Shown here one piece after another: positions 20,173 to 54,143 of a stretch of DNA of 64,000 bases. This DNA is from Gallaecimonas sp. GXIMD4217 (lineage in GTDB: Bacteria; Pseudomonadota; Gammaproteobacteria; Enterobacterales; Gallaecimonadaceae): positions 124,001-188,000 of the forward strand of contig NZ_CP149925.1 in the NCBI RefSeq assembly GCF_038087665.1, given 5' to 3'. Below the pieces are notes generated by a model. That model did not search any database. It had not been told where the DNA came from and saw only the letters and a list, made by a program, of their open reading frames with translations. A program made the translations under genes and the position numbers. The stretch's first letter is position 1. Each line of letters starts with the position of its first letter.

Positions 20173-20579
20173 GCAGGGGCAGCTGCCTGTGCGGGGCGGT
20201 GCGCTACCAGGTGGAGGAGGTGGCCTGGGTGGCCCACTGCCATTGCCCCATGTGCCGCAAGAGCCATGGCGCGGCCCTGGTGACCTGGGTGGGCGTCAAC
20301 AAGGACGCCTTTCGCATCACGGCCGGCGAGGACCAGGTTAACTGGTACGAATCCAGCCCAGGTGCCGGCCGCGGAGCCTGCAGGATCTGCAACTCGCTGC
20401 TGTTCTTCCATGCCCCCAGGTGGCCGGACGAGATGCACATCACCCGGGCCAGCTTCGACGAGGATATCGGGATGCGGCCCCTGGCCCATGCCTGGTACGA
20501 CCGTCACGTGGACTGGCTGACCATAAGCGACGATCTGCCCAGGCGGGGCGGCCCCTCCGGCACCGAGCCCCTGGACTAG
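20169..20579 (+). CDS. GFA-family zinc protein (glutathione-dependent formaldehyde-activating type)
   Basis: The 136-residue protein has the Mss4/GFA fold with zinc-binding cysteines: GSCLCGAVRY (residues 4-13), HCHCPMCRKSHGA (about 24-36), and a later CRICNS. Family members are often called glutathione-dependent formaldehyde-activating enzymes, but for most a different or unknown role is likely. It overlaps the thioredoxin lipoprotein gene by four bases, so the two are co-translated. Its stop lies in the first bases of the 84-85-bp repeat array that follows. Confidence 0.85.
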   Translation: MSRGSCLCGAVRYQVEEVAWVAHCHCPMCRKSHGAALVTWVGVNKDAFRITAGEDQVNWYESSPGAGRGACRICNSLLFFHAPRWPDEMHITRASFDEDIGMRPLAHAWYDRHVDWLTISDDLPRRGGPSGTEPLD

Positions 20580-20916
20580 AGCCGCCGTATCAGCAGCGGC
20601 ATCAGGGGGCCTGTACGACAAGAGCGGGCGTGAACAGGGCAAAGCCGTAGACCACTGAATCAGAGCCGCCGTATCAGCAGCGGCATCAGGGGGCCTGTAC
20701 GACAAGAGTGGGCGTGAACAGGGCAAAGCCGTAGACCACTGAATCAGAGCCGCCGTATCAGCAGCGGCATCAGGGGTGCCTGTACGACAAGAGTGGGCGT
20801 GAACAGGGCAAAGCCGTAGGCCACTGAATCAGAGCCGCCGGATCAGCAGCGGCATCAGGGGTGCCTGTACGACAAGAGTGGGCGTGAACAGGGCAAAGCC
20901 GTAGACCACTGAATCA
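20579..20916. repeat. Four tandem 84-85-bp copies of the 3' end of the antiporter gene
   Basis: Copies start at 20579, 20663, 20747 and 20832, and a fifth, native one at 20917 is the antiporter's own 3' end. Periods are 84, 84, 85 and 85. Read on the minus strand each unit retains codons for SVVYGFALFT..., then VQAPLMPLLIRRL and a stop, so the unit is the last 28 codons plus one joining base. The copies differ from the native end at a CGACAAGAGTGGGCGTG segment but are nearly identical to each other, indicating that they multiplied after the first duplication. Two copies carry a one-base deletion. They are not expected to be translated. Confidence 0.88.
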
Positions 20917-22107
20917 GAGCCGCCGTATCAGCAGCGGCATCAGGGGGGCCTGTACGAAGAGGGTGAACAGGGCAAAGCCGTACACGACCGACTGGGCCGT
21001 ATACCAGCCCTCCAGGGTCACGGGCAGGGCCAGGGCCAGGGCCAGGGACACGGCGCCGCGCAGGCCGCCCCACATCATCACATGGCGCTGGGCCAGGGGC
21101 AGCCGCTGCTGGCCCGGCAGGCTGTTGGCCAGGGGCAGCAGGCCGTAGATCACCAGCGACCGGGCCAGTATGGCCGCGGCTATGCCGATCAGCATGGCCA
21201 GCCAGCGGTCGGCGAACATCATCCAGGTCACGGTGACGCCCACCAGCAGGAACACCAGGGCATTGGCCAGGTAGGCGGCCACCTCCCAGAGTCCGGTCAG
21301 CAGGCGTTCCTGGCCCTTGCCGCGGCAACTCTCGCCGTAGATAAGCCCGGCCACCACCAGGGCCACAATGCCGGACACCTGCAGCCAGTGTTCGGCGATA
21401 TGGAAGGTAAGCAGCATCAGGATCACCGAGCCGGCGGCCAGGTGCATCTGCTCGCTCAGGGAGCGCACCCCCAGCCAGGCCAGCAGGCCCAGGGCGGCAC
21501 CGGCCAGGATGCCGCCGCCAAAGGCATAACCGAAGCGCCAGATGGCCTCCAGGATAGAGATGTCGCCGCCACCGGCCAGGCCCAGCAGCACCATGAAGGC
21601 CACCACGGCGGTGGCGTCGTTGAACAGGCTCTCCCCCTCCAGCAGGGTATGGAGCCGTTCGGGGGCGCCCATGGCCTTGAACAGGGCCACCACCGCCACC
21701 GGATCCGTGGCCGACAGCATCACCCCGGTGATCAGGGCGGTGAGCAGCGGGAAGCCCAGCTCGTGGCCTATGCCAAGGAAGAGGACCAGGCCGCTGATGG
21801 CGGCGGCCAGCAGCATGGCCGGCACCGCCAGCACCAGCACCGGCCACCATACCCCTTTCAGGGCACCCAGGCGCAGGTTGAGGGCCGACTCGAACACCAG
21901 CACCGGCACCAGGGCGTGCAGTATCCAGTCCTGGAAGTGATGCCAGCGAAAGCCGGTATCGAAGCCGGCCAGCAGCACCAGCTCCGAGCCGATAAAACCC
22001 ACCAGCACCAGCAGGGTGGCAAAGGGCAGCCGCAGCCGCCGGGCCAGGGGCTCCAGCAACATGGCCAGGAGCAGCATCAGGGCAATGGTGAGCAGGCTGG
22101 TAAGCAT
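20914..22107 (-). CDS. CPA1-family Na+(K+)/H+ antiporter
   Basis: The 397-residue membrane protein has about twelve helices and the motifs of the CPA1 (NhaP-like) exchangers, which export Na+ or K+ for protons. ATDPVAVVALFKAMG carries the transport Asp pair region, EGESLFNDATAVVAF follows as usual, and WGGLRGAVSLALALALP is the late Arg-containing signature. The length is a little short because the protein has almost no cytoplasmic tail. The 3' end was duplicated four times beyond the stop. The start ATG 22107 follows GGGAGAAG. The gene is divergent from creD across about 110 bases. Confidence 0.87.
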   Translation of the reverse strand: MLTSLLTIALMLLLAMLLEPLARRLRLPFATLLVLVGFIGSELVLLAGFDTGFRWHHFQDWILHALVPVLVFESALNLRLGALKGVWWPVLVLAVPAMLLAAAISGLVLFLGIGHELGFPLLTALITGVMLSATDPVAVVALFKAMGAPERLHTLLEGESLFNDATAVVAFMVLLGLAGGGDISILEAIWRFGYAFGGGILAGAALGLLAWLGVRSLSEQMHLAAGSVILMLLTFHIAEHWLQVSGIVALVVAGLIYGESCRGKGQERLLTGLWEVAAYLANALVFLLVGVTVTWMMFADRWLAMLIGIAAAILARSLVIYGLLPLANSLPGQQRLPLAQRHVMMWGGLRGAVSLALALALPVTLEGWYTAQSVVYGFALFTLFVQAPLMPLLIRRL

Positions 22108-44307: not shown

Positions 44308-46395
44308 ATGGCCATCAAGCAACAGCATAGGCGCACACTGGCAAGCGTACTGCTAACGGCCCTGCTGTCCGGCGCGCCCGTGCTGGCGGCGTACAGCGGC
44401 GGCGCCCTGGCCGAGGAGCCGACCTACAACGCCCAGTTCAAGGACACCGACATCAGCGAGTTCATCGCCACGGTGTCCTCCATCCTCAAGCGCACCATAG
44501 TCCTGGACCCGTCCGTACGCGGCAAGATAGACGTACGCTCCTACAAGGAGATGACGGCCGCCGAGTACTACGACTACTTCCAGAACGTGCTGGACGTGTA
44601 CGGCTTCGCCGTGGTCGAGATGCCCAACGGCGTGCTCAAGGTGGTCAAGGCCAAGGACGCCAAGACCGGCCCCAGCCCGGTGCTGGACGCCAAGGAAAAG
44701 AGCACCTCTTCCGACCAGGTGGTGACCCGGGTGGTGCAGGTGCACAACGTGCCGGTGCGCGAGCTGGCGCCGATCCTGCGCCAGCTCAACGACAACGCCG
44801 GCGCCGGCAACGTGGTCCACTACGACGATTCCAACATCCTGATCCTCACCGGCCGCGCCGCCACCGTCGACCGCCTGGAACAGATCGTGCGCCGCGCCGA
44901 CAAGGCCGGCGACCAGGACGTGCAGGTGGTCAAGCTGCAGCACGCCTCCGCCGCCCAGGTGGTGGCCATAGTGGAGGATCTCAACAAGGGCACCGGCAAC
45001 AAGCCCGGCAGCGATCCCCTGGCGGTGAAGGTGGTGGCCGACGAGCGCACCAACTCGGTGCTGGTGTCCGGCGAGGCCAAGGGCCGGGCCCGGGTGATCC
45101 GCACCATCAGGGCCCTGGATTCCGAGCAGCAGACCACCGGCAACACCCGCGTCATCTACCTGCAGTACGCCAAGGCGGAGGATCTGGTGGAGGTGCTGGA
45201 AGGGGTCTCCGAGACCATAGTGGCCGAGGAGCAGCAGGGCCAGCAGCAGGCCCGCAGCCGCAGCGCCCAGTCCGTGCCCATCTCCATCAAGGCCCACGAA
45301 GACACCAACGCCCTGGTGATCACCGCCCAGCCGGACCTGATGCGCTCCCTGGAGGGGGTCATCAAGCAACTGGATATCCGCCGTGCCCAGGTCCATGTGG
45401 AAGCCATCATAGTGGAGATCTTCGACGGCGACGGCACCGACCTTGGTGTGCAGTGGGTCCATGAGGATTACGGCCTGCAGCAGTTCAACAACGGCAACTT
45501 CCCCAGCCTGACCCAGGTGGGGGCCGCCGCCCTGGCCGCCGAGGGCCAGAAGGGCACCACTACCGTCACCATCGACTCCAACGGCACCCGTACCGAGCAG
45601 AGCACCCCGGATACCAGGGGCGACTTTACCCTGCTGGCCCAGGTGCTGGGCCAGGTCAACGGCGCCATGTGGGGCGTGCTGAAGAACGACTGGGGCGCCA
45701 TAGTCCAGGCGGTGTCCACCAACACCAAGGCCAACATCCTCTCCACGCCGTCGGTGACCACCCTGGACAACAAGGAAGCCAACTTCGTGGCCGGTGAAGA
45801 CGTGCCGCTGCTGACCGGCTCCACCCCGGGCGAGAACAACTCCAACCCCTTCCAGACCATCGAACGCCAGCAGCTGGGTGTGAAGCTGAAGGTCACCCCC
45901 CAGATCAACGAGGGCGACTCGGTACAGCTGGAGATCGTCCAGGAAGTGTCCAGCCGCGCCGGCAACACCGCCGTGGACATCACCCTCAACAAGCGGGAAG
46001 TGAGCACCACGGTGCTGGTGGGCGACGGCGATACCGTGGTGCTGGGCGGCCTCATCGACGAGGACGTGCAGGAATCCGAATCCAAGGTGCCGCTGCTGGG
46101 CGACATCCCGGTGCTGGGCCACCTGTTCAAGTCCACCTCCACCTCCAAGCGCAAGCGCAACCTGATGGTGTTCATCCGCCCGTCCATCGTCCGCGACCGC
46201 GAGACCATGTCCAGGCTCAGCCACCGCAAGTACAACTTCATGCGCGACGGCCAGCTGCAGCGCCAGGAAGACGGCATCTCCCTGATGCCCTTCATGGAGC
46301 CGCCGGTACTGCCCCAGTGGGACGATGCCCTGGCCCATCCGCCCAGCTTCGAGGAATACCTCCAGCGCCAGGCCCGGGAAGGCAGCGATGACTGA
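44308..46395 (+). CDS. gspD: Type II secretion secretin GspD
   Basis: GspD forms the outer-membrane channel of the type II system. The 695-residue precursor has a signal peptide, N0 domain ([29 protein letters not shown]), repeated N1-N3 domains, and the secretin core with [30 protein letters not shown] and the ending [33 protein letters not shown]-terminal S-domain-like tail follows residue 610, where a pilotin could bind; no pilotin gene is in the window. Next in the operon is gspE, overlapping by eight bases. Confidence 0.96.
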
Positions 46396-47923
46396 GCGGC
46401 TGCCCCAGGAAGAGCTGCTGGAGGCGGCCGAGGGCGCCCTGGAGGAGGAAAACCCGGCCGAGCAGCTGGCCGCCGGCCGGCTGCCCTTCGCCTTTGCCAA
46501 GGCCCAGGGGGTGCTGCTCCATGACGGCGTCTTCTACGTGCGCCAGGGTGCCAGCGCCGCCGCCATCCTGGAGGCCCGCCGGGCCCTGGCCCAGCCGCTG
46601 GCGCCACAGCTGGTGTCCGGCGACCAGTTCGAACAGCAGCTGGTGGCGGCCTACCAGGCCAACTCCTCCGAGGCCCGCCAGCTGATGGAGGACATCGGCC
46701 AGGATCTGGATCTCAACGCCCTGGCCGAGGAGCTCCCCCAGACCGAGGATCTGCTGGACTCCGACGACGACGCGCCGGTGATCCGCCTGATCAACGCGCT
46801 GCTGTCGGAAGCCATCAAGGAAGGGGCCTCGGACGTGCATATCGAGACCTTCGAGCAGGCCCTGGTGGTGCGTTTTCGCATCGACGGCGTGCTCAAGGAG
46901 ATCCTGCGTCCCAGCCGCAAGCTGGCCAACCTGCTGGTGTCGCGCATCAAGGTCATGGCCCGCCTGGATATCGCCGAGAAGCGGGTGCCCCAGGACGGCC
47001 GCATCAGCCTGCGCATCGCCGGCCGCGCCGTGGACGTGCGGGTGTCCACCATGCCGTCCAACCACGGCGAGCGGGTGGTGCTGCGCCTGCTGGACAAGAA
47101 CGCCGTGCGCCTCAACCTCACCGACCTGGGCATGACCCCGGGGGTGCAGGAGCGCTTCGACGCCCTCATCCGCAAGCCCCACGGCATACTGCTGGTCACA
47201 GGCCCCACCGGCTCGGGCAAGTCCACCACCCTCTATGCGGGTCTTTCCGAGATCAACTCCAAGGACCGCAACATCCTGACCGTGGAAGACCCCATCGAAT
47301 ACGACCTGGAAGGCATAGGCCAGACCCCGGTCAACCCCAAGGTGGACATGACCTTCGCCCGGGGCCTTAGGGCCATACTGCGCCAGGATCCGGACGTGGT
47401 GATGGTGGGCGAGATCCGCGATCTGGAAACGGCGCAGATCGCCGTCCAGGCCTCCCTGACCGGCCACCTGGTGCTGTCCACCCTGCACACCAACACCGCC
47501 GCCGGCGCCATCACCCGCCTCGAGGACATGGGCATAGAACCCTTCCTGGTGTCCAGCTCCCTGCTGGGGGTGCTGGCCCAGCGCCTGGTGCGCAGGCTCT
47601 GCCCCCACTGCCGCCAACCCTACCAGGCCAGCAGCGCCGAGCTGGAGATCCTCGGCATGGCCGCGGACACAGAACAGGTGCTGTACCACCCCGGCAGCTG
47701 CGAGCACTGCAACCATACCGGCTACAAGGGCCGCACCGGCATCCACGAGCTGATCGTGGTGGACGAGCAGCTGCGCGAACTGATCCACAACGGCAAGGGC
47801 GAGCAGGCCATAGTCCGGCACGTGCGCAAGTCGGTGCCGTCCATCCGTGACGACGGCTTCTCCAAGGTGCGCCTGGGCCAGACCTCCCTTGAGGAAGTGC
47901 TGCGCGTGACCCGGGAGGATTGA
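46388..47923 (+). CDS. gspE: Type II secretion ATPase GspE
   Basis: GspE is the cytoplasmic hexameric ATPase that drives pseudopilus assembly. The 511-residue protein has the N-terminal domain that binds GspL, Walker [10 protein letters not shown] (272-280), Asp box, Walker B-like GEIRDLETA, His box [16 protein letters not shown], and the tetracysteine zinc module with CPHC (about 395-398) and CEHC (about 428-431). ATG 46388 overlaps the gspD stop. Its stop overlaps the gspF start. Confidence 0.97.
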
Positions 47924-49149
47924 TGGCCGCCTTCGAATACCTGGCCCTGGACGCCAAGGGCAAGAACAGGAAGGGCATCATAGAGGCCGACACCGCCAAG
48001 GCGGCCCGCAGCCAGCTGCGGGAAAAGGGCCTGATGCCGGTGAGCATAGAGGCCACCGTCTCCAAGGAGAAGGCCTCCGCCAAGGGCAGTGGCGCGCTGT
48101 TCAGGGCGGGCCGGATCTCGGTGCCGGATCTGGCCCTGATCACCCGCCAGCTGGCCACCCTGGTACAGTCGGCCCTGCCCATAGAGGAATGCCTCAAGGC
48201 GGTGGCCGAGCAGAGCGAGAAGCCGCGCCTGCAGCGCATCCTGATGGCGGTGCGCTCCAAGGTGGTGGAAGGCTACAGCCTGGCCGACTCGCTGCGGGAG
48301 TTCCCCCATGTCTTCGACGATCTCTACTGCGCCATGGTCAGCGCCGGCGAAAAGTCCGGCCACCTGGACACGGTGCTCAACCGCCTGGCCGACTATACGG
48401 AGCAGCGCCAGTACCTGAAGCAGAAGATCAGCCAGGCCATGATCTACCCCATCATGCTGACCCTGGTGGCGGTGGGGGTCATCACCCTGCTGCTGACCCA
48501 GGTGGTGCCCAAGGTGGTGGCCCAGTTCGAGCACATGAACCAGACCCTGCCGGCCTCCACCCGCTTCCTGATCGCCGCCTCCGAGTTCCTGCAGAGCTAC
48601 GGCCTTTGGATCCTGGCCGCCCTGGTGCTGGCCTTCCTGGCCTTCGGCCGGGCCATGACCAGGCGGCCGTTCCGGAAGCGGGTCCATGACCTGGTGCTGA
48701 GGCTGCCGGTGTTCGGCAAGGTCAGCCGTGGCATCAACACCGCCCGCTTCGCCCGCACCCTGTCCATCTGCAGCGCCTCGGCGGTGCCGCTGCTGGAAGG
48801 CATGCGCATCGCCGGCGACGTGCTGGCCAACCTGGTGGTCAAGGACGCGGTGAGCGACGCCACCGCCCGGGTCCGCGAGGGCACCTCGTTGCGCCAGGCC
48901 CTGGCCAACACCAGGCTGTTCCCGCCCATGATGCTGCACATGATCGCCTCCGGCGAGAAATCCGGCGAGCTCACCCAGATGCTGGAGCGGGCCGCCGACA
49001 ACCAGGATCGGGAATTCGAGAACCAGGTCGCTGTCTCACTGGGCATACTGGGGCCGGTGATCGTGATACTGCTGGCCGCCATGGTGTTCTTTATCGTCAT
49101 CTCCATCTTGCAGCCCATCATGGAACTCAACAACATGGTGGGCAGATAG
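47923..49149 (+). CDS. gspF: Type II secretion inner-membrane platform protein GspF
   Basis: The 408-residue protein has two homologous T2SF domains with three membrane helices (near residues 172, 225 and 378), as in GspF/PilC platform proteins. [23 protein letters not shown] at the N-terminus is characteristic. LITRQLATLVQSALPIEECL and FARTLSICSASAVPLLEGM mark the start of each domain. Start ATG 47923 overlaps the gspE stop (TGATG). Confidence 0.95.
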   Translation: MAAFEYLALDAKGKNRKGIIEADTAKAARSQLREKGLMPVSIEATVSKEKASAKGSGALFRAGRISVPDLALITRQLATLVQSALPIEECLKAVAEQSEKPRLQRILMAVRSKVVEGYSLADSLREFPHVFDDLYCAMVSAGEKSGHLDTVLNRLADYTEQRQYLKQKISQAMIYPIMLTLVAVGVITLLLTQVVPKVVAQFEHMNQTLPASTRFLIAASEFLQSYGLWILAALVLAFLAFGRAMTRRPFRKRVHDLVLRLPVFGKVSRGINTARFARTLSICSASAVPLLEGMRIAGDVLANLVVKDAVSDATARVREGTSLRQALANTRLFPPMMLHMIASGEKSGELTQMLERAADNQDREFENQVAVSLGILGPVIVILLAAMVFFIVISILQPIMELNNMVGR

Positions 49150-49166
49150 CCTTCACAGGAGTCGTT

Positions 49167-49622
49167 ATGAAAGTCAGTACCCGCAAACAGCGCCGCCAGG
49201 GCGGCTTCACCCTGCTGGAGATCATGGTGGTCATCGTGATCCTTGGCATCCTCGCCTCCATGATCGTACCCAATGTGCTGGGCAACAAGGAGCAGGCCGA
49301 CCAGCAGAAGGTGGTCTCCGACATCCGCGCCCTGGAGTCCTCCCTGGACATGTTCAAGCTGGACAACAGCCGCTACCCGGACACCGAACAGGGCCTGGAA
49401 GCCCTGGTCAGCGATCCGGGTGGCCTGCGCAAATACAAGGAAGGCGGCTACATCAAGCGCCTGCCCAAGGACCCCTGGGGCAACGACTACATCTACCTCA
49501 ACCCGGGCGAGCAGAGCCGCAGCGGCTATGACCTCTACTCCCTGGGCGCCGACGGCCAGGAAGGCGGCGAAGGCGTGAACGCCGATATCGGCAACTTCAA
49601 CCTGGGCGACTTCCAGGGCTGA
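49167..49622 (+). CDS. gspG: Type II secretion major pseudopilin GspG
   Basis: GspG is the main subunit of the pseudopilus. The 151-residue precursor has a 13-residue basic leader ending in Gly before FTLLEIMVVIVILGILASMIVP; prepilin peptidase would cut Gly-Phe. The rest matches GspG, including the calcium-site end (DPWGNDYIYLNPGEQ, LYSLGADGQEGGEGVNADIGNF). The leader is single and of normal length, in contrast to GspI and GspJ. AGGAG precedes ATG 49167. Confidence 0.97.
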   Translation: MKVSTRKQRRQGGFTLLEIMVVIVILGILASMIVPNVLGNKEQADQQKVVSDIRALESSLDMFKLDNSRYPDTEQGLEALVSDPGGLRKYKEGGYIKRLPKDPWGNDYIYLNPGEQSRSGYDLYSLGADGQEGGEGVNADIGNFNLGDFQG

Positions 49623-50209
49623 TGCGCCAGGCCCGGGGTTTCACCCTGCTGGAGATCATGGTGGTGGTGATGCTGATTGGCCTCGCCGCCTCCCTGGTCG
49701 CCATCAACTTCGGCGGCGAGACCGCCGCCGACCGCCTGGACAAGGAGGCCCGCGCCTGGCTGGCCCGCCTGGAGCTGCTCCGGGACGAGGCGGTGATGCA
49801 GGGCCGGGAGCTGGGCCTGCGCCTGGACAAACAGGGCAAAAGGCCCCAGCTGGAGCCCATGCGCTTCACCGAGGACGGCTGGCAGAAGCTGGAAAGCGAT
49901 CGCCTGCTCAGCGCCTGGCCCCTGGCCGAGGGCATCCGCGGCGCCATCAAGCTGGACGGCCTGGAGCTGGGCCCCAGCCTGATCCCGGAGGACGCCTTTG
50001 CCGAGGAAGACGCTGACGACGAGGCCGAGCGGCTCACCCCGCACCTGTTCTTCCTGTCCAGCGGCGAGCTGCTGCCCTTCGAGCTGTGCCTGACCACCGA
50101 AGACGAGCAGCGCCGGGAGCTGGTGCTGTGCATCCAGGGCCAGGCCACGGGTGGCCTGAGCCTGGTGGACGACCGCCGCGCCTCTGATCTGGGGGAGCTG
50201 CAATGGTAA
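49622..50209 (+). CDS. gspH: Type II secretion minor pseudopilin GspH
   Basis: This 195-residue minor pseudopilin has a short leader (MRQARG) before FTLLEIMVVVMLIGLAASLVAINFG, then the beta-rich globular domain of GspH (LLRDEAVMQGRELGLRLDKQG, FFLSSGELLPFELCL). It sits near the pseudopilus tip. The ATG overlaps the gspG stop, and its end overlaps the gspI start by seven bases. Confidence 0.92.
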   Translation: MRQARGFTLLEIMVVVMLIGLAASLVAINFGGETAADRLDKEARAWLARLELLRDEAVMQGRELGLRLDKQGKRPQLEPMRFTEDGWQKLESDRLLSAWPLAEGIRGAIKLDGLELGPSLIPEDAFAEEDADDEAERLTPHLFFLSSGELLPFELCLTTEDEQRRELVLCIQGQATGGLSLVDDRRASDLGELQW

Positions 50210-50664
50210 GGGCGCGCGGCTTTACCTTGCTGGACAGGAAGGGTGCTGGCCCGGGCCGCAAGGTACGCGGTTTTACCCTGCTGGCCAGTAAGGATGGTGG
50301 CCCGGGCCGTTCCCATAGCGGTTTTACCCTGCTGGAGGTACTGGTGGCCCTGGCCATCTTCTCGGTGGCGGCCCTGGCGGTGTTGTCGGCGGCCAACAAC
50401 AACATCACCAGCCTCGGCTACCTGGAGGAGAAGACCTTCGCCGACTGGGTGGCCAATAACAAGCTGGTGGACGCCGACCTCGGCGAGGTGAAGGACGGCC
50501 TCAAGGGCACCGAGACCCTGGCCGGGGTGGAATGGCACTGGCAGTACAAGCGCCTCAAGACCGAGGATGCCAACTTCTATGCCGTCGAGGTCAGGGTCGG
50601 CCGCACGGCGGACCTCAAGGCCCCCCTGGCGGTGCTGCGCCGCTACCAGGAGAAGCAGCCATGA
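50203..50664 (+). CDS. gspI: Type II secretion minor pseudopilin GspI with triplicated leader motif
   Basis: GspI is a tip pseudopilin that initiates the pseudopilus with GspJ and GspK. From residue 41 the sequence is normal (FTLLEVLVALAIFSVAALAVLSAANNN). The leader, however, is 40 residues instead of about six: the GFTLL cleavage motif occurs after Arg5, again at residue 23 and again at 40, spaced 17 residues, with Gly/Lys/Arg-rich linkers. GGGGGAG is six bases before ATG 50203 and no other in-frame ATG/GTG/TTG start exists before the third motif, so this extended leader is probably translated. Only the third motif is next to a membrane helix. Confidence 0.92.
   Translation: MVRARGFTLLDRKGAGPGRKVRGFTLLASKDGGPGRSHSGFTLLEVLVALAIFSVAALAVLSAANNNITSLGYLEEKTFADWVANNKLVDADLGEVKDGLKGTETLAGVEWHWQYKRLKTEDANFYAVEVRVGRTADLKAPLAVLRRYQEKQP
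50217..50334 (+). repeat. 51-bp in-frame tandem repeat in the gspI leader
   Basis: The prepilin cleavage segment begins at 50217, 50268 and 50319 (two full units plus the native copy). Each unit encodes GFTLL plus a twelve-residue linker containing GAGPGR or GGGPGR. The copies are moderately diverged at the DNA level, so the expansion is not very recent. The 51-bp period keeps the frame. Confidence 0.9.
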
Positions 50665-51524
50665 GCCGGCGTAGTTCCACCCTGCCGGAAGTGTTTGGCA
50701 ACGGCAGCCAAGGCGATGGCCGACAGCGGGGCTTCACCCTATTGGAGGTGTTTGGCAACGGCAGCCAAGGCGATGGTCGCCAGCGGGGCTTCACCCTATT
50801 GGAGGTGTTTGGCAACGGCAGCCAAGGCGTTGGCCGACAGCATGGCTTCACCCTATTGGAGGTGCTGATCGCCATCAGCATCTTCGCCATGGTCGGCCTG
50901 GCCAGCTTCCAGGTGCTGGATCAGGTGCTCAAATCCGACGAGAGCAGCGCCCGGAAGACGGCTCAGCTCAAGGCCCTGCAGCAGGCCTTCTTCACCATGG
51001 AGCGGGACTTCATGCAGCTCAGCCCCCGCAAGGCCCGCTTCCCGGACGGCGAGCGCCAGCAGGCGGCGCTGCTGTCCCAGGACGGCCTGCTGGAAAGCGA
51101 GGGTGGCGCCATCGCCTTTACCCGCCTGGGCTGGATCAACCCGGCCGCCATGCTGCCTCGGGCCGAGGTGCAGCTGGCTGGCTACCGGCTGGCCGAAGGC
51201 CGGCTGGAGCGGCTGCACTACCTGTACCCGGATCCGGACTACGGCCAGGAGCCCCAGCGGCTCAGCCTGCTGGAGGGGGTGGACAAGCTGGCCTTCCGCT
51301 TCTTCGACGGCGAACACTGGGTGACCAGCTGGGACAAGCCGGTGCTGCCGCGGCTGCTGGCGGTGCAGCTGACCCTGGACGGCTACGGCGAGATAGAGCG
51401 CCGCTTCATGGTGCCCGAGGGGGCCACGGTCGAGCGGCAGGCCCAGAACAATGGCCAGGGCAACGGCCAGAACAACCCCGGCAGCGGCCGCCCCAACAAT
51501 CCCAACAGGGGCAGCTCGTCATGA
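50661..51524 (+). CDS. gspJ: Type II secretion minor pseudopilin GspJ with repeated leader motif
   Basis: The normal GspJ part begins at residue 63 (FTLLEVLIAISIFAMVGLASFQVLDQVL) and continues with RDFMQLSPRKARF and later VDKLAFRFFDGEHW, as expected. The leader is about 62 residues long and contains GFTLLEV at positions 24, 43 and 62, each followed by FGNGSQG(D/V)GRQ(R/H) linkers, plus a degenerate first copy (STLPEV). The period is 19 residues. The C-terminus is Asn/Gly/Gln-rich (NNGQGNGQNNPGSGRPNNPNRG pattern, last 30 residues). ATG 50661 overlaps the gspI stop. Confidence 0.93.
   Translation: MSRRSSTLPEVFGNGSQGDGRQRGFTLLEVFGNGSQGDGRQRGFTLLEVFGNGSQGVGRQHGFTLLEVLIAISIFAMVGLASFQVLDQVLKSDESSARKTAQLKALQQAFFTMERDFMQLSPRKARFPDGERQQAALLSQDGLLESEGGAIAFTRLGWINPAAMLPRAEVQLAGYRLAEGRLERLHYLYPDPDYGQEPQRLSLLEGVDKLAFRFFDGEHWVTSWDKPVLPRLLAVQLTLDGYGEIERRFMVPEGATVERQAQNNGQGNGQNNPGSGRPNNPNRGSSS
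50678..50860 (+). repeat. 57-bp in-frame tandem repeat in the gspJ leader
   Basis: The CACCCT core of the leader recurs at 50678, 50735, 50792 and 50849, exactly 57 bases apart. Copies 2 and 3 are nearly identical, so this array is younger or better homogenised than the gspI one. Unit sequence includes TTTGGCAACGGCAGCCAAGG. The frame is kept throughout. Confidence 0.92.
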
Positions 51525-52489
51525 GGCACAGGCAGCAGGGCGTGGCCCTGATCACCGTGCTGCTGGTGGTGGCTGTGGTGGTGGTCATAGGCGCCGAGAT
51601 GAGCAGCCGCCTGGGGCTGGGGATCCGCCGCACCGACAACCAGCTCAGCCAGCACCAGGCCTTCTGGTACGCCATCAGCGGCGAGGCCTACGCCAAGAAG
51701 GTGCTGATCGAGCTGCTCAAGGACAACGACGGCCAGCTGGGCCCAGAGCTGGGCTGGCAGGAAGAGCAGGCCTTCCCGGTGGAAGGGGGCGAGATCAGGG
51801 GCCGGTTGCGTGATGCCAAGGCCTGCTTCAACCTCAATGCCCTGCAGGTGAGCAATGACGACGACAGGCGCATCCGCGCCGGCCAGTTCCAGGCGCTGCT
51901 GGAGCACCTGGAGGTGGACAACTACCAGGCCGAGCAGGTAGCCCAGGGCCTGGCCGACTGGCTGGACGAGGACGACCGGCTGCAAAGCAGCCTGGGCGCG
52001 GAAGACAGCGAGTACCAGAGCCGGGAACATCCCTACCTGGCCGCCAACGGCCCGATGGCGGATGCCTCCGAGCTCAGGGCCGTCAACGGCATGAGCGGGG
52101 CCATCTACCAGAAGATCCGCCCCCATGTCTGCGCCCTGGCCGGCAACGACTGGGCCCTTAACATCAACGGCCTGACCGAAGAGCAGGCGCCGCTGCTGGC
52201 CGCCTGGCTGGCGCCCATGAGCCTGGCCGACGCCGAGTCGCTGCTGTCGTCCCGGCCCAGGGACGGCTACGCCGACGTGGCCGATTTCCGCGCCGAGCCG
52301 GCCCTGGCCGCCCTCCAGGGCCAGGACGTCAACGCCGCCATAGAGGCGGTGGTGGTCAAGAGCGATCACTTCCTGGTGCAGCTGCAAGGCCATTACCAGG
52401 ACAGGGTGGTCTACCTGGAGAGCGAACTGCTGCAAGATGAGAACAACAAGATGACGGTGCAGTCGCGCCGTCTGGGAGGAGCCCTGTGA
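51521..52489 (+). CDS. gspK: Type II secretion minor pseudopilin GspK
   Basis: GspK is the large pseudopilin that caps the tip. The 322-residue precursor has a short leader (MRHRQQG) before VALITVLLVVAVVVVIGAEMSSRL; the residue after the cut is Val, as is usual in GspK. The large globular domain follows, with the AKACFNLNALQVSNDDD segment and the paired helical T2SSK domains (GLADWLDEDDRLQ, YLAANGPMADASELRAVNGM). Overlaps gspJ by four bases. Confidence 0.95.
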   Translation: MRHRQQGVALITVLLVVAVVVVIGAEMSSRLGLGIRRTDNQLSQHQAFWYAISGEAYAKKVLIELLKDNDGQLGPELGWQEEQAFPVEGGEIRGRLRDAKACFNLNALQVSNDDDRRIRAGQFQALLEHLEVDNYQAEQVAQGLADWLDEDDRLQSSLGAEDSEYQSREHPYLAANGPMADASELRAVNGMSGAIYQKIRPHVCALAGNDWALNINGLTEEQAPLLAAWLAPMSLADAESLLSSRPRDGYADVADFRAEPALAALQGQDVNAAIEAVVVKSDHFLVQLQGHYQDRVVYLESELLQDENNKMTVQSRRLGGAL

Positions 52490-53673
52490 GCCAAACCCTG
52501 GTATTGCGCCTGGGCATGAACGCCGAAGACCCCATCCACTGGCTGATCCGCTCGGCCAGGGAGGAAGAGATCCTGTCCTCCGGCCGCCTGGCCGGGGCCA
52601 GCGAACTGGCCCAGCTGGCCGACAAGGCCGGCGACGCCAAAGTACTGGTGCTGGTGCCCGGCCAGGCCCTGGGCTGCCACGTGCTGCCCGCCCAGGGCAA
52701 GGGCCGCCAGTTCCTCAAGGCGGTGCCCTTCATGCTGGAGGAGCAGCTGGCCGACGATGTCGAACATCTGCATTTCACCCTGATCCCCCAGGGAGAGCAG
52801 GTCCATGCCCTGGTCTGCGGCCATGGCCACATGCAGGCCTGGTTGGGCTGGCTGGCCGAGACCGGCCTCAAGCCCTTCCGCATGCTGCCGGACATGCTGG
52901 CTTTGCCCCATTTCGAGGACAGCTGGTCCGCCCTGGCCCTGGACGGCGAGTTGCTGGTGCGCACCGGCCCCTACCAGGGCCTGGCCGGCGAGGCCGAACT
53001 GGTCAACCTGGCCATCCAGAGCCTGACCGTGGACAGCCAGGACATACAGCCGGTCAACGCCTATTCCGAGCTGCGCCTGCCCGCCAACTGCACCCTCAAC
53101 CACCTGGGCGCCGAACTGCCCCTGGCGGTACTGGCCAAGGGCGCCGAGGCAAGCCGGCTCAACCTGCTGCACGGCCCCTACGGGGTCAAGCAGGAAGGCC
53201 AGGGCCAGCTCAAGGCCTGGTGGCCCCTGGCCGCGGCCTGCGCCGCCCTGCTGGTGGTGGCGGTGGCCGGCAAGGCCGTCAGCCTGTACCAGCTGAAACA
53301 GCAGGAGGCCGCCCTGCAGGCCCAGATCGAGACCGACTTCAAGCGCCTGTTCCCGGGCACCAGGCGTATCGTCAACGTCCGCTCCCAGATGCGCCAGAAG
53401 CTCAAGGCCCTGGGCGGCGCCAGCAGCGAGCCGGTATTCCTGGCCATGCTGGCCGACCTGGCCCCGGCACTCAAGGCCGTGCCCGGCATGAGGCCGGACA
53501 GCCTGCGCTTCGACGACAGGCGTGGCGAGCTGCGGCTGATGCTGGTGGGCAAGGATTACGCCGCCTTCGAAACCCTCAAGGGCAAGCTCAGCGACGCCTA
53601 TGAGGTGGAAGCCGGTGGCCAGAGCGCCGTTGAAGGGGGCGTCTCAGGTGCCCTGGTGTTGAGGAGCAGGTGA
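52486..53673 (+). CDS. gspL: Type II secretion platform protein GspL
   Basis: GspL anchors the GspE ATPase to the membrane. The 395-residue protein has a cytoplasmic actin-like region (residues 1-240: VLVLVPGQALGCHVLPAQGKGR, AVPFMLEEQLADDVEHLHF), one membrane helix (about residues 247-262) and a periplasmic ferredoxin-like domain. The start is GTG 52486 after GGGAGGA, overlapping the gspK stop. Confidence 0.94.
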   Translation: MSQTLVLRLGMNAEDPIHWLIRSAREEEILSSGRLAGASELAQLADKAGDAKVLVLVPGQALGCHVLPAQGKGRQFLKAVPFMLEEQLADDVEHLHFTLIPQGEQVHALVCGHGHMQAWLGWLAETGLKPFRMLPDMLALPHFEDSWSALALDGELLVRTGPYQGLAGEAELVNLAIQSLTVDSQDIQPVNAYSELRLPANCTLNHLGAELPLAVLAKGAEASRLNLLHGPYGVKQEGQGQLKAWWPLAAACAALLVVAVAGKAVSLYQLKQQEAALQAQIETDFKRLFPGTRRIVNVRSQMRQKLKALGGASSEPVFLAMLADLAPALKAVPGMRPDSLRFDDRRGELRLMLVGKDYAAFETLKGKLSDAYEVEAGGQSAVEGGVSGALVLRSR

Positions 53674-54143
53674 TGAACATCAAAGACTGGTATGACAATC
53701 TCGAGGCCAGGGAGCGGCGGTTGATCGCCCTGGCCGCCCCCGTGGCCCTGGTGGGGCTGCTGTACTGGGGGATCTGGACGCCGCTCGGCGAGGCGGTGGC
53801 GCAGGCCCAGAACCGGGTCAACGCCAAGCAGAACGAGCTGGACTGGCTCAGGGACCAGGGCGCCACCGTGCTGGCGGCCCGGGGCGGCAGCCGGCCGGTG
53901 GCCGGTGGCAGCCTGACCCAGAGGGTCACCAATGCCGCCCGGGCACACCAGATCACCATAGCCCGGCTCCAGCCCACCAGCAGTGGCGTGGCGGTGTGGG
54001 TCGACGACGTGGCCTTCGATGCCCTGACGTTGTGGCTGGCCCAGCTGCAGCAGCAGGGCCTGGTGGTGAGCCAGGCCGATATCGCCGCCGGCGAGGCCAG
54101 CGGCAAGGTCAAGGTGCGTAAACTGGAGCTGGTGGGGGCCTGA
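53673..54143 (+). CDS. gspM: Type II secretion platform protein GspM
   Basis: The 156-residue product has a short cytoplasmic start (MNIKDWYDNLEARERRLI), one membrane helix (about residues 20-38) and a periplasmic domain, the GspM layout; it dimerises with GspL. ATG 53673 overlaps the gspL stop (TGATG); a GTG three bases earlier is possible. It overlaps gspN by one base. Confidence 0.93.
   Translation: MNIKDWYDNLEARERRLIALAAPVALVGLLYWGIWTPLGEAVAQAQNRVNAKQNELDWLRDQGATVLAARGGSRPVAGGSLTQRVTNAARAHQITIARLQPTSSGVAVWVDDVAFDALTLWLAQLQQQGLVVSQADIAAGEASGKVKVRKLELVGA

Follow-up and report, generated by a model that had tools for sequence, protein, structure and literature searches.

Repeated prepilin motifs in the leaders of the minor pseudopilins GspI and GspJ of Gallaecimonas sp. 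GXIMD4217, with a counterpart in a second genus

The 64,000-nucleotide stretch of DNA analysed here (the window) holds a type II secretion operon in which the genes of two minor pseudopilins, gspI and gspJ, have leaders built of tandem repeats of the prepilin motif GFTLL. The arrays lie in open frames, and that of gspI stands behind a conserved leader start. Repeated motifs occur also in the gspJ leader of a second genus, where their copy number has changed repeatedly and upstream motifs have decayed. We privilege, as the probable explanation, recurrent in-frame tandem duplication in a tolerated cytoplasmic leader that is removed whole at the motif next to the hydrophobic helix, copy number drifting because it is tolerated. 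Since the extra motifs come and go in the second genus, they are most likely tolerated passengers and not working extra cut sites.

The gspI leader

The ORF at 50203-50664, whose translation starts MVRARGFTLLDRKGAGPGRKVRGFTLLASKDGGPGRSHSGFTLLEVLVALAIF, scores 91.5 bits against the GspI family TIGR01707 of NCBIfam (4e-26; curated cut-off 44.35) and matches Pfam T2SSI (5.8e-19). The earlier note had claimed three GFTLL motifs in its leader, and these are present, their first letters at residues 6, 23 and 40. The in-frame tandem array translated from 50203 that it described also holds, the frame being open and TRF reporting a repeat at 50215-50336 with period 51, 2.4 copies and score 153. The start assigned by that note, with its ribosome site, agrees with the GGGGGAG ahead of the ATG (Table 1) and with the overlap of this ATG with the gspH stop. 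The statement that no ATG, GTG or TTG precedes the third motif is incorrect: codon 9, within the first motif, is an in-frame TTG, and a start there would still give a leader of 32 residues. The leader was rightly singled out for its length, as its 40 residues compare with a median of 9 and a 95th percentile of 22 for the nearest-start leaders of 415 distinct prepilins in the fetched loci.

Between the three motifs there are 2 silent changes and no replacement, against 1 silent and 11 replacement changes in the linkers. At the fifth residue past the glycine, unit 1 has D and unit 2 has A; the usual Glu is found in unit 3 only.

The gspJ leader

A larger array, absent from the earlier note, occupies positions 50673-50864 in gspJ, whose ATG overlaps the gspI stop. 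The gspJ product is assigned to GspJ by TIGR01711 (1.3e-55; 188.2 bits, curated cut-off 64.85) and T2SSJ (1.7e-36). TRF gives 57-bp units in 3.1 copies with 93% matches, and both periods, 51 x 2.4 and 57 x 3.1, are divisible by three. The array comprises three GFTLLEV and one decayed first copy, whose motif carries 2 silent and 5 replacement changes, and its linker is unlike that of gspI. The leader reads MSRRSSTLPEVFGNGSQGDGRQR, then GFTLLEVFGNGSQGDGRQR, GFTLLEVFGNGSQGVGRQH and GFTLLEVLIAISIF, with a net charge of just +2. Internal GTG and TTG codons would, if used, give leaders of 14 or 16 residues. In gspI as in gspJ, the combination of Gly-1, Phe+1, Glu+5 and a hydrophobic stretch is complete only at the last motif.

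A shared RNA structure of the two arrays was considered and rejected, as the z score of folding is -2.7 for gspI (4 of 200 shuffles fold equally well) against +1.3 for gspJ (183 of 200). The gspI array may form a hairpin.

Table 1. Coordinates of the secretion genes and leader repeats (window positions, except gspH2, which is placed on the genome).
Feature	Position	Strand	Sequence or basis
Type II secretion operon gspE, F, G, H, I, J, K, L, M, open frames	46325..54143	+	ORFs and profiles
gspI ribosome-binding site (likely)	50191..50197	+	GGGGGAG, read by eye; ATG 5 bases on
gspI, minor pseudopilin precursor, 153 aa, leader of 40 residues (Gly included)	50203..50664	+	TIGR01707 and T2SSI profiles
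gspI unit 1	50218..50268	+	GFTLLDRKGAGPGRKVR
gspI unit 2	50269..50319	+	GFTLLASKDGGPGRSHS
gspI third GFTLL, then hydrophobic helix EVLVALAIF; likely processed site	50320..50334	+	N_methyl match, residues 36-61
gspJ ribosome-binding site (likely)	50648..50653	+	AGGAGA, read by eye
gspJ, minor pseudopilin precursor, 287 aa, leader of 62 residues (Gly included)	50661..51524	+	TIGR01711 and T2SSJ profiles
gspJ decayed first unit	50673..50729	+	SSTLPEVFGNGSQGDGRQR
gspJ unit	50730..50786	+	GFTLLEVFGNGSQGDGRQR
gspJ unit	50787..50843	+	GFTLLEVFGNGSQGVGRQH
gspJ final GFTLLEV ahead of hydrophobic helix; likely processed site	50844..50864	+	N_methyl match, residues 59-82
gspH2, GspH-like gene	3342162-3342755 (genome)	minus	Best NCBIfam match XpsH, under its cut-off

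Leader arrays and other tandem repeats of the genome

Tandem repeat finding at the 22 prepilin-motif loci of the genome that score above the cut-off, gspJ being counted once, gave leader arrays at three, gspI, gspJ and gspH2, and none at the remaining loci. Three of 22 seems more than randomly placed arrays would give, a point against mere passengers, although one of these loci had prompted the search. Sampling of 39 stretches (780 kb) of the genome gave a background of 15 arrays, three judged CRISPR-like by eye, and 400 kb from two congeners gave 4 (period of at least 30 and score of at least 100, crude gene caller, the window and the gspH2 stretch left out).

The gspH2 leader has 64 residues and holds an 81-bp array of 2.2 copies whose unit contains no GFTLL; no internal start lies nearer than 64 residues. 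The gspG-like gene that precedes gspH2 has a 3' end similar to part of the unit, with a score that 0 of 500 shuffles reach. Besides itself and this gspG end, the repeat has two short weak matches in the genome (40 of 61 candidates scored). For the gspI and gspJ linkers, derivation from the end of the upstream gene was rejected, since the score is reached in 305, 113, 344 and 226 of 500 shuffles, as was an origin as a dispersed repeat, only short weak genome matches being found (40 of 284 candidates scored). The source of their DNA was found neither in upstream gene ends nor among genome-wide matches.

Several other arrays were observed, gene ends being the site of several of them in this genome. 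In the window, an array of period 85 with 95% matches and 4.9 copies lies at 20578-20982, where it overlaps a minus-strand ORF of 397 aa at its 3' end. Called genes of the minus strand carry arrays of 54 and 55 bp (L116, 3744-3883; L123, 3588-3764) at their 3' ends. A 92-bp unit in 2.6 copies, opening ATGAAATGG (L111, 18702-18936, near 898.7 kb of G000:C1), seems to include the start of a small membrane-protein gene; the unit length is not divisible by three, so the last start is probably the one used. An in-frame 51-bp array of 5.9 copies codes for KEGKCGEGKCGAEKKAM repeats in a small Cys-rich protein (L112, 18357-18659), and 61-bp spaced repeats (L120, 151-1096) are CRISPR-like in appearance.

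Congeners and wider searches

Comparison of GspI N-termini in relatives, the check proposed in the earlier note, supports an added array: gspI and gspJ have a single motif in the four congeners examined, and the GspI of one of them (G002) begins MVRARGFTLIEV, that is MVRARG/FTLIEV, sharing 9 of 10 residues with the first ten of the window protein. With this match the gspI array sits behind an old leader, and the MVRARGFTLL of the window looks like that leader with 34 residues added behind it. The gspH2 product of congener G003 begins MWAAGTERGFTLLEM, and its MWAAGTERG/FTLLE, compared with MWAAGN...NRQRG/FTLLE in the window genome, matches the start of the long gspH2 leader.

The gspI leader matched 78 of 369 genomes of the class, and no further repeated leader was present in the 30 loci examined, one of them the window genome's own. 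Searches with the gspJ leader matched 32 of 394 genomes of the order (30 loci examined, one its own), yielding the second genus described below, and 38 of 398 of the phylum, where the 30 loci examined showed no repeated motifs in another genus. The class, order and phylum sets overlap, and the loci examined cover part of the matched genomes. The genome-contig scan yielded two distant relatives only. Outside the second genus and the window genome, nearest-start leaders of at least 29 residues occur in 3/90 GspH, 3/93 GspI and 1/89 GspJ, and none of these long leaders has repeated motifs.

A second genus with repeated gspJ motifs

The order-level search led to a gspJ with three GFTLLE in genome G543, of genus g303. 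The GspD of this genus matches PDB entry 6i1x_A with 983 bits, which we take to be the Aeromonas hydrophila secretin; g303 is thus probably Aeromonas. A gspJ match was present in 36 of 37 species and all 36 leaders were read, the pattern that found these genes tolerating some other letters in the motif. Measured from the ATG overlapping the gspI stop, the leaders have 8-73 residues, at least 29 in 20/36 and 8-19 in 16/36. The overlap is ATGA in 32 species and 11 bases off in 2, the script having left the gspI stop unlocated in the other 2. All 36 leaders are stop-free from the assigned ATG, and the last motif is GFTLLEM in every species. Many long leaders hold a start codon near the last motif, which makes leader length in g303 uncertain; by nearest start the gspJ median is 13. 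Nearest-start leaders of at least 29 residues are absent from the other pseudopilins of g303 (GspG 0/18, GspH 0/36, GspI 0/36).

An intact GFTLLE lies upstream of the last motif in 7/36 species. Decayed upstream motifs, recognised by eye, are present in L250, L254, L256, L257 and L264, and also in L248, which keeps an intact one as well; their forms (DLTPLE, GLTSRD, GFTQRE, GVTRRE, GAMPLE) keep the frame open, which suggests that the extra motifs can be dispensed with. The number of exact motifs changed at least six times on a leader-free tree in which gains and losses are not separable (gspJ/gspI, "quick" method; 17 of 33 inner branches starred and 6 open). Near relatives with a similar left leader differ by a unit (L249 versus L268 and L272; L255 versus L265). 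The change of copy number that the earlier note had envisaged is thereby seen between species of g303; within the window species, represented by a single genome, it has no such support.

The left gspJ leader of L251 and L252 (MIPSN.R.SRH) is near-identical to that of L263, L267 and L271, though they are separate on the tree, and this could reflect leader transfer between species. In g303 genome G672 an 89-bp unit, in 2.0 copies, extends across the gspH start and first motif codons (L175, 445-621).

Selection, frame and charge

Upstream motifs of g303 differ from the last motif by 20 synonymous and 16 replacement changes in 13 copies, for an expectation of 2.4 possible replacements per synonymous change; the copies come from 16 rows, of which 3 non-motif rows were dropped, and the detector overlooked a decayed copy in L254. 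Detection by amino-acid identity or recombination between copies could explain the synonymous excess; the decayed first motif of the window gspJ, with more replacement than silent changes, runs counter to it. The upstream motifs are nevertheless not freely decaying, which is a point against strict neutrality, and owing to this excess a functional role has to be considered. In such a role the repeated motifs would be docking or cleavage sites of the peptidase, or the long tail would delay insertion, unit number tuning how quickly GspI and GspJ are readied. Several peptidase sites and delayed insertion, like the contingency repeat considered below, had been raised in the earlier note as possible consequences. 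Besides the synonymous excess, it would agree with the constancy of GFTLL across the diverged gspI linkers, with a gspJ design shared by two genera, and with the presence of leaders of at least 29 residues in GspH, GspI and GspJ but not in GspG (0/94 plus 0/18). We nonetheless regard it as unlikely. Several g303 species have let upstream motifs decay while keeping the leader, gspJ leaders in 16 of the 36 are short, units 1 and 2 of gspI lack Glu5, and the upstream motifs are not followed by a hydrophobic helix. A bolder form is a shade less likely still: the leader array of the tip pseudopilins would bind or queue prepilin peptidase and its unit number would set the moment at which GspI and GspJ can start a pseudopilus, gain and loss of units being a recurrent adaptive dial in at least two genera.

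The 22 long leaders (20 of g303 plus gspI and gspJ of the window) carry a charge per residue of +0.147 in frame; the value falls to 0.044 in the two remaining forward frames, which meet a stop in 31 of 44 cases. This bears on the idea that the array is mostly untranslated, gspJ starting at an internal GTG or TTG and the repeats being a duplicated 5' region. Such codons exist at suitable distances in the window gspJ, and the many g303 genes with a start codon near their last motif point the same way. The idea is improbable all the same, as no good ribosome site was recognised by eye ahead of these codons in gspJ, the nearest internal start of gspI still leaves 32 residues, gspH2 offers none nearer than 64, the g303 leaders are all open, and the 22 long leaders are more positively charged in that frame.

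A contingency locus, in which unit number would vary among cells or strains and switch secretion, is very improbable: the near-identical gspJ units (93%) could recombine and g303 species do differ in unit number, but since each unit is a whole number of codons, adding or removing one would not switch frame. An assembly or sequencing artefact, for which nothing speaks except the oddity itself, is hardly credible given a genome in one contig and 99.68% complete, units that differ among themselves and a similar pattern in other genomes.

Proposed origin and processing

In the favoured explanation, in-frame tandem duplications would have lengthened the gspI and gspJ leaders and taken in the start of the mature protein (GFTLL or GFTLLEV), the precursor being translated from the old start codon that overlaps the stop of the preceding gene. 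According to two reviews (PMC10191384, PMC4471445), the leader of an inserting prepilin is cytoplasmic, and both the active site of the peptidase and the cut lie at the membrane face. The last motif alone is fused to a hydrophobic helix and would alone meet prepilin peptidase there. An upstream motif lacks such a helix and would not reach the membrane face, so that the last motif would be cut and the whole array discarded. The peptidase would remove the entire 40- or 62-residue leader and leave an ordinary mature pseudopilin. The leader would need only hydrophilicity, positive charge and an intact frame; being discarded, cytoplasmic and subject to so few requirements, it would leave unit number and linker sequence free to drift. 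Such processing at the last motif is in keeping with the in-frame bias to positive charge and with the way upstream motifs have decayed in g303. We infer cleavage at the last motif, near-neutrality of the array and duplication as the mutational step.

Relation to known systems and significance

Class III signal peptides have leaders of 6-26 residues according to the review PMC4471445, a range exceeded by GspI and GspJ. The likeness lies in a hydrophilic basic leader ending in Gly and followed by FTLLE and a hydrophobic helix, and in the presence in the genome of a prepilin peptidase gene (one match), cleavage here being predicted. The difference is a leader of 40 or 62 residues with extra motif copies, and the GspI and GspJ leaders are in length variant, not ordinary, class III signal peptides. 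To our knowledge, the leaders of type IVb prepilins are not built of repeated motifs, and the proteins described here are GspI and GspJ by profile. They resemble type IVb prepilins in exceeding the classical type IVa leader length, type IVb leaders having about 15-30 residues in the same review (PMC4471445). With coding minisatellites they share in-frame tandem units (51 and 57 bp, and 81 bp in gspH2) and a unit number that varies between g303 species, but the gspI and gspJ arrays belong to a leader whose removal is expected, and each of their units includes a motif recognised by a protease. Long prepilin leaders are already known; no paper on repeated cleavage motifs within such leaders was found in searches of an open-access library.

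These genes warn that start-site annotation and prepilin finders relying on the motif only can misplace the cleavage site. They make testable how prepilin peptidase chooses one glycine among several identical motifs. They also indicate how elastic a prepilin leader can be, with 40 and 64 residues in gspI and gspH2, where no nearer good start exists, and up to 73 residues in g303 by the overlapping start.
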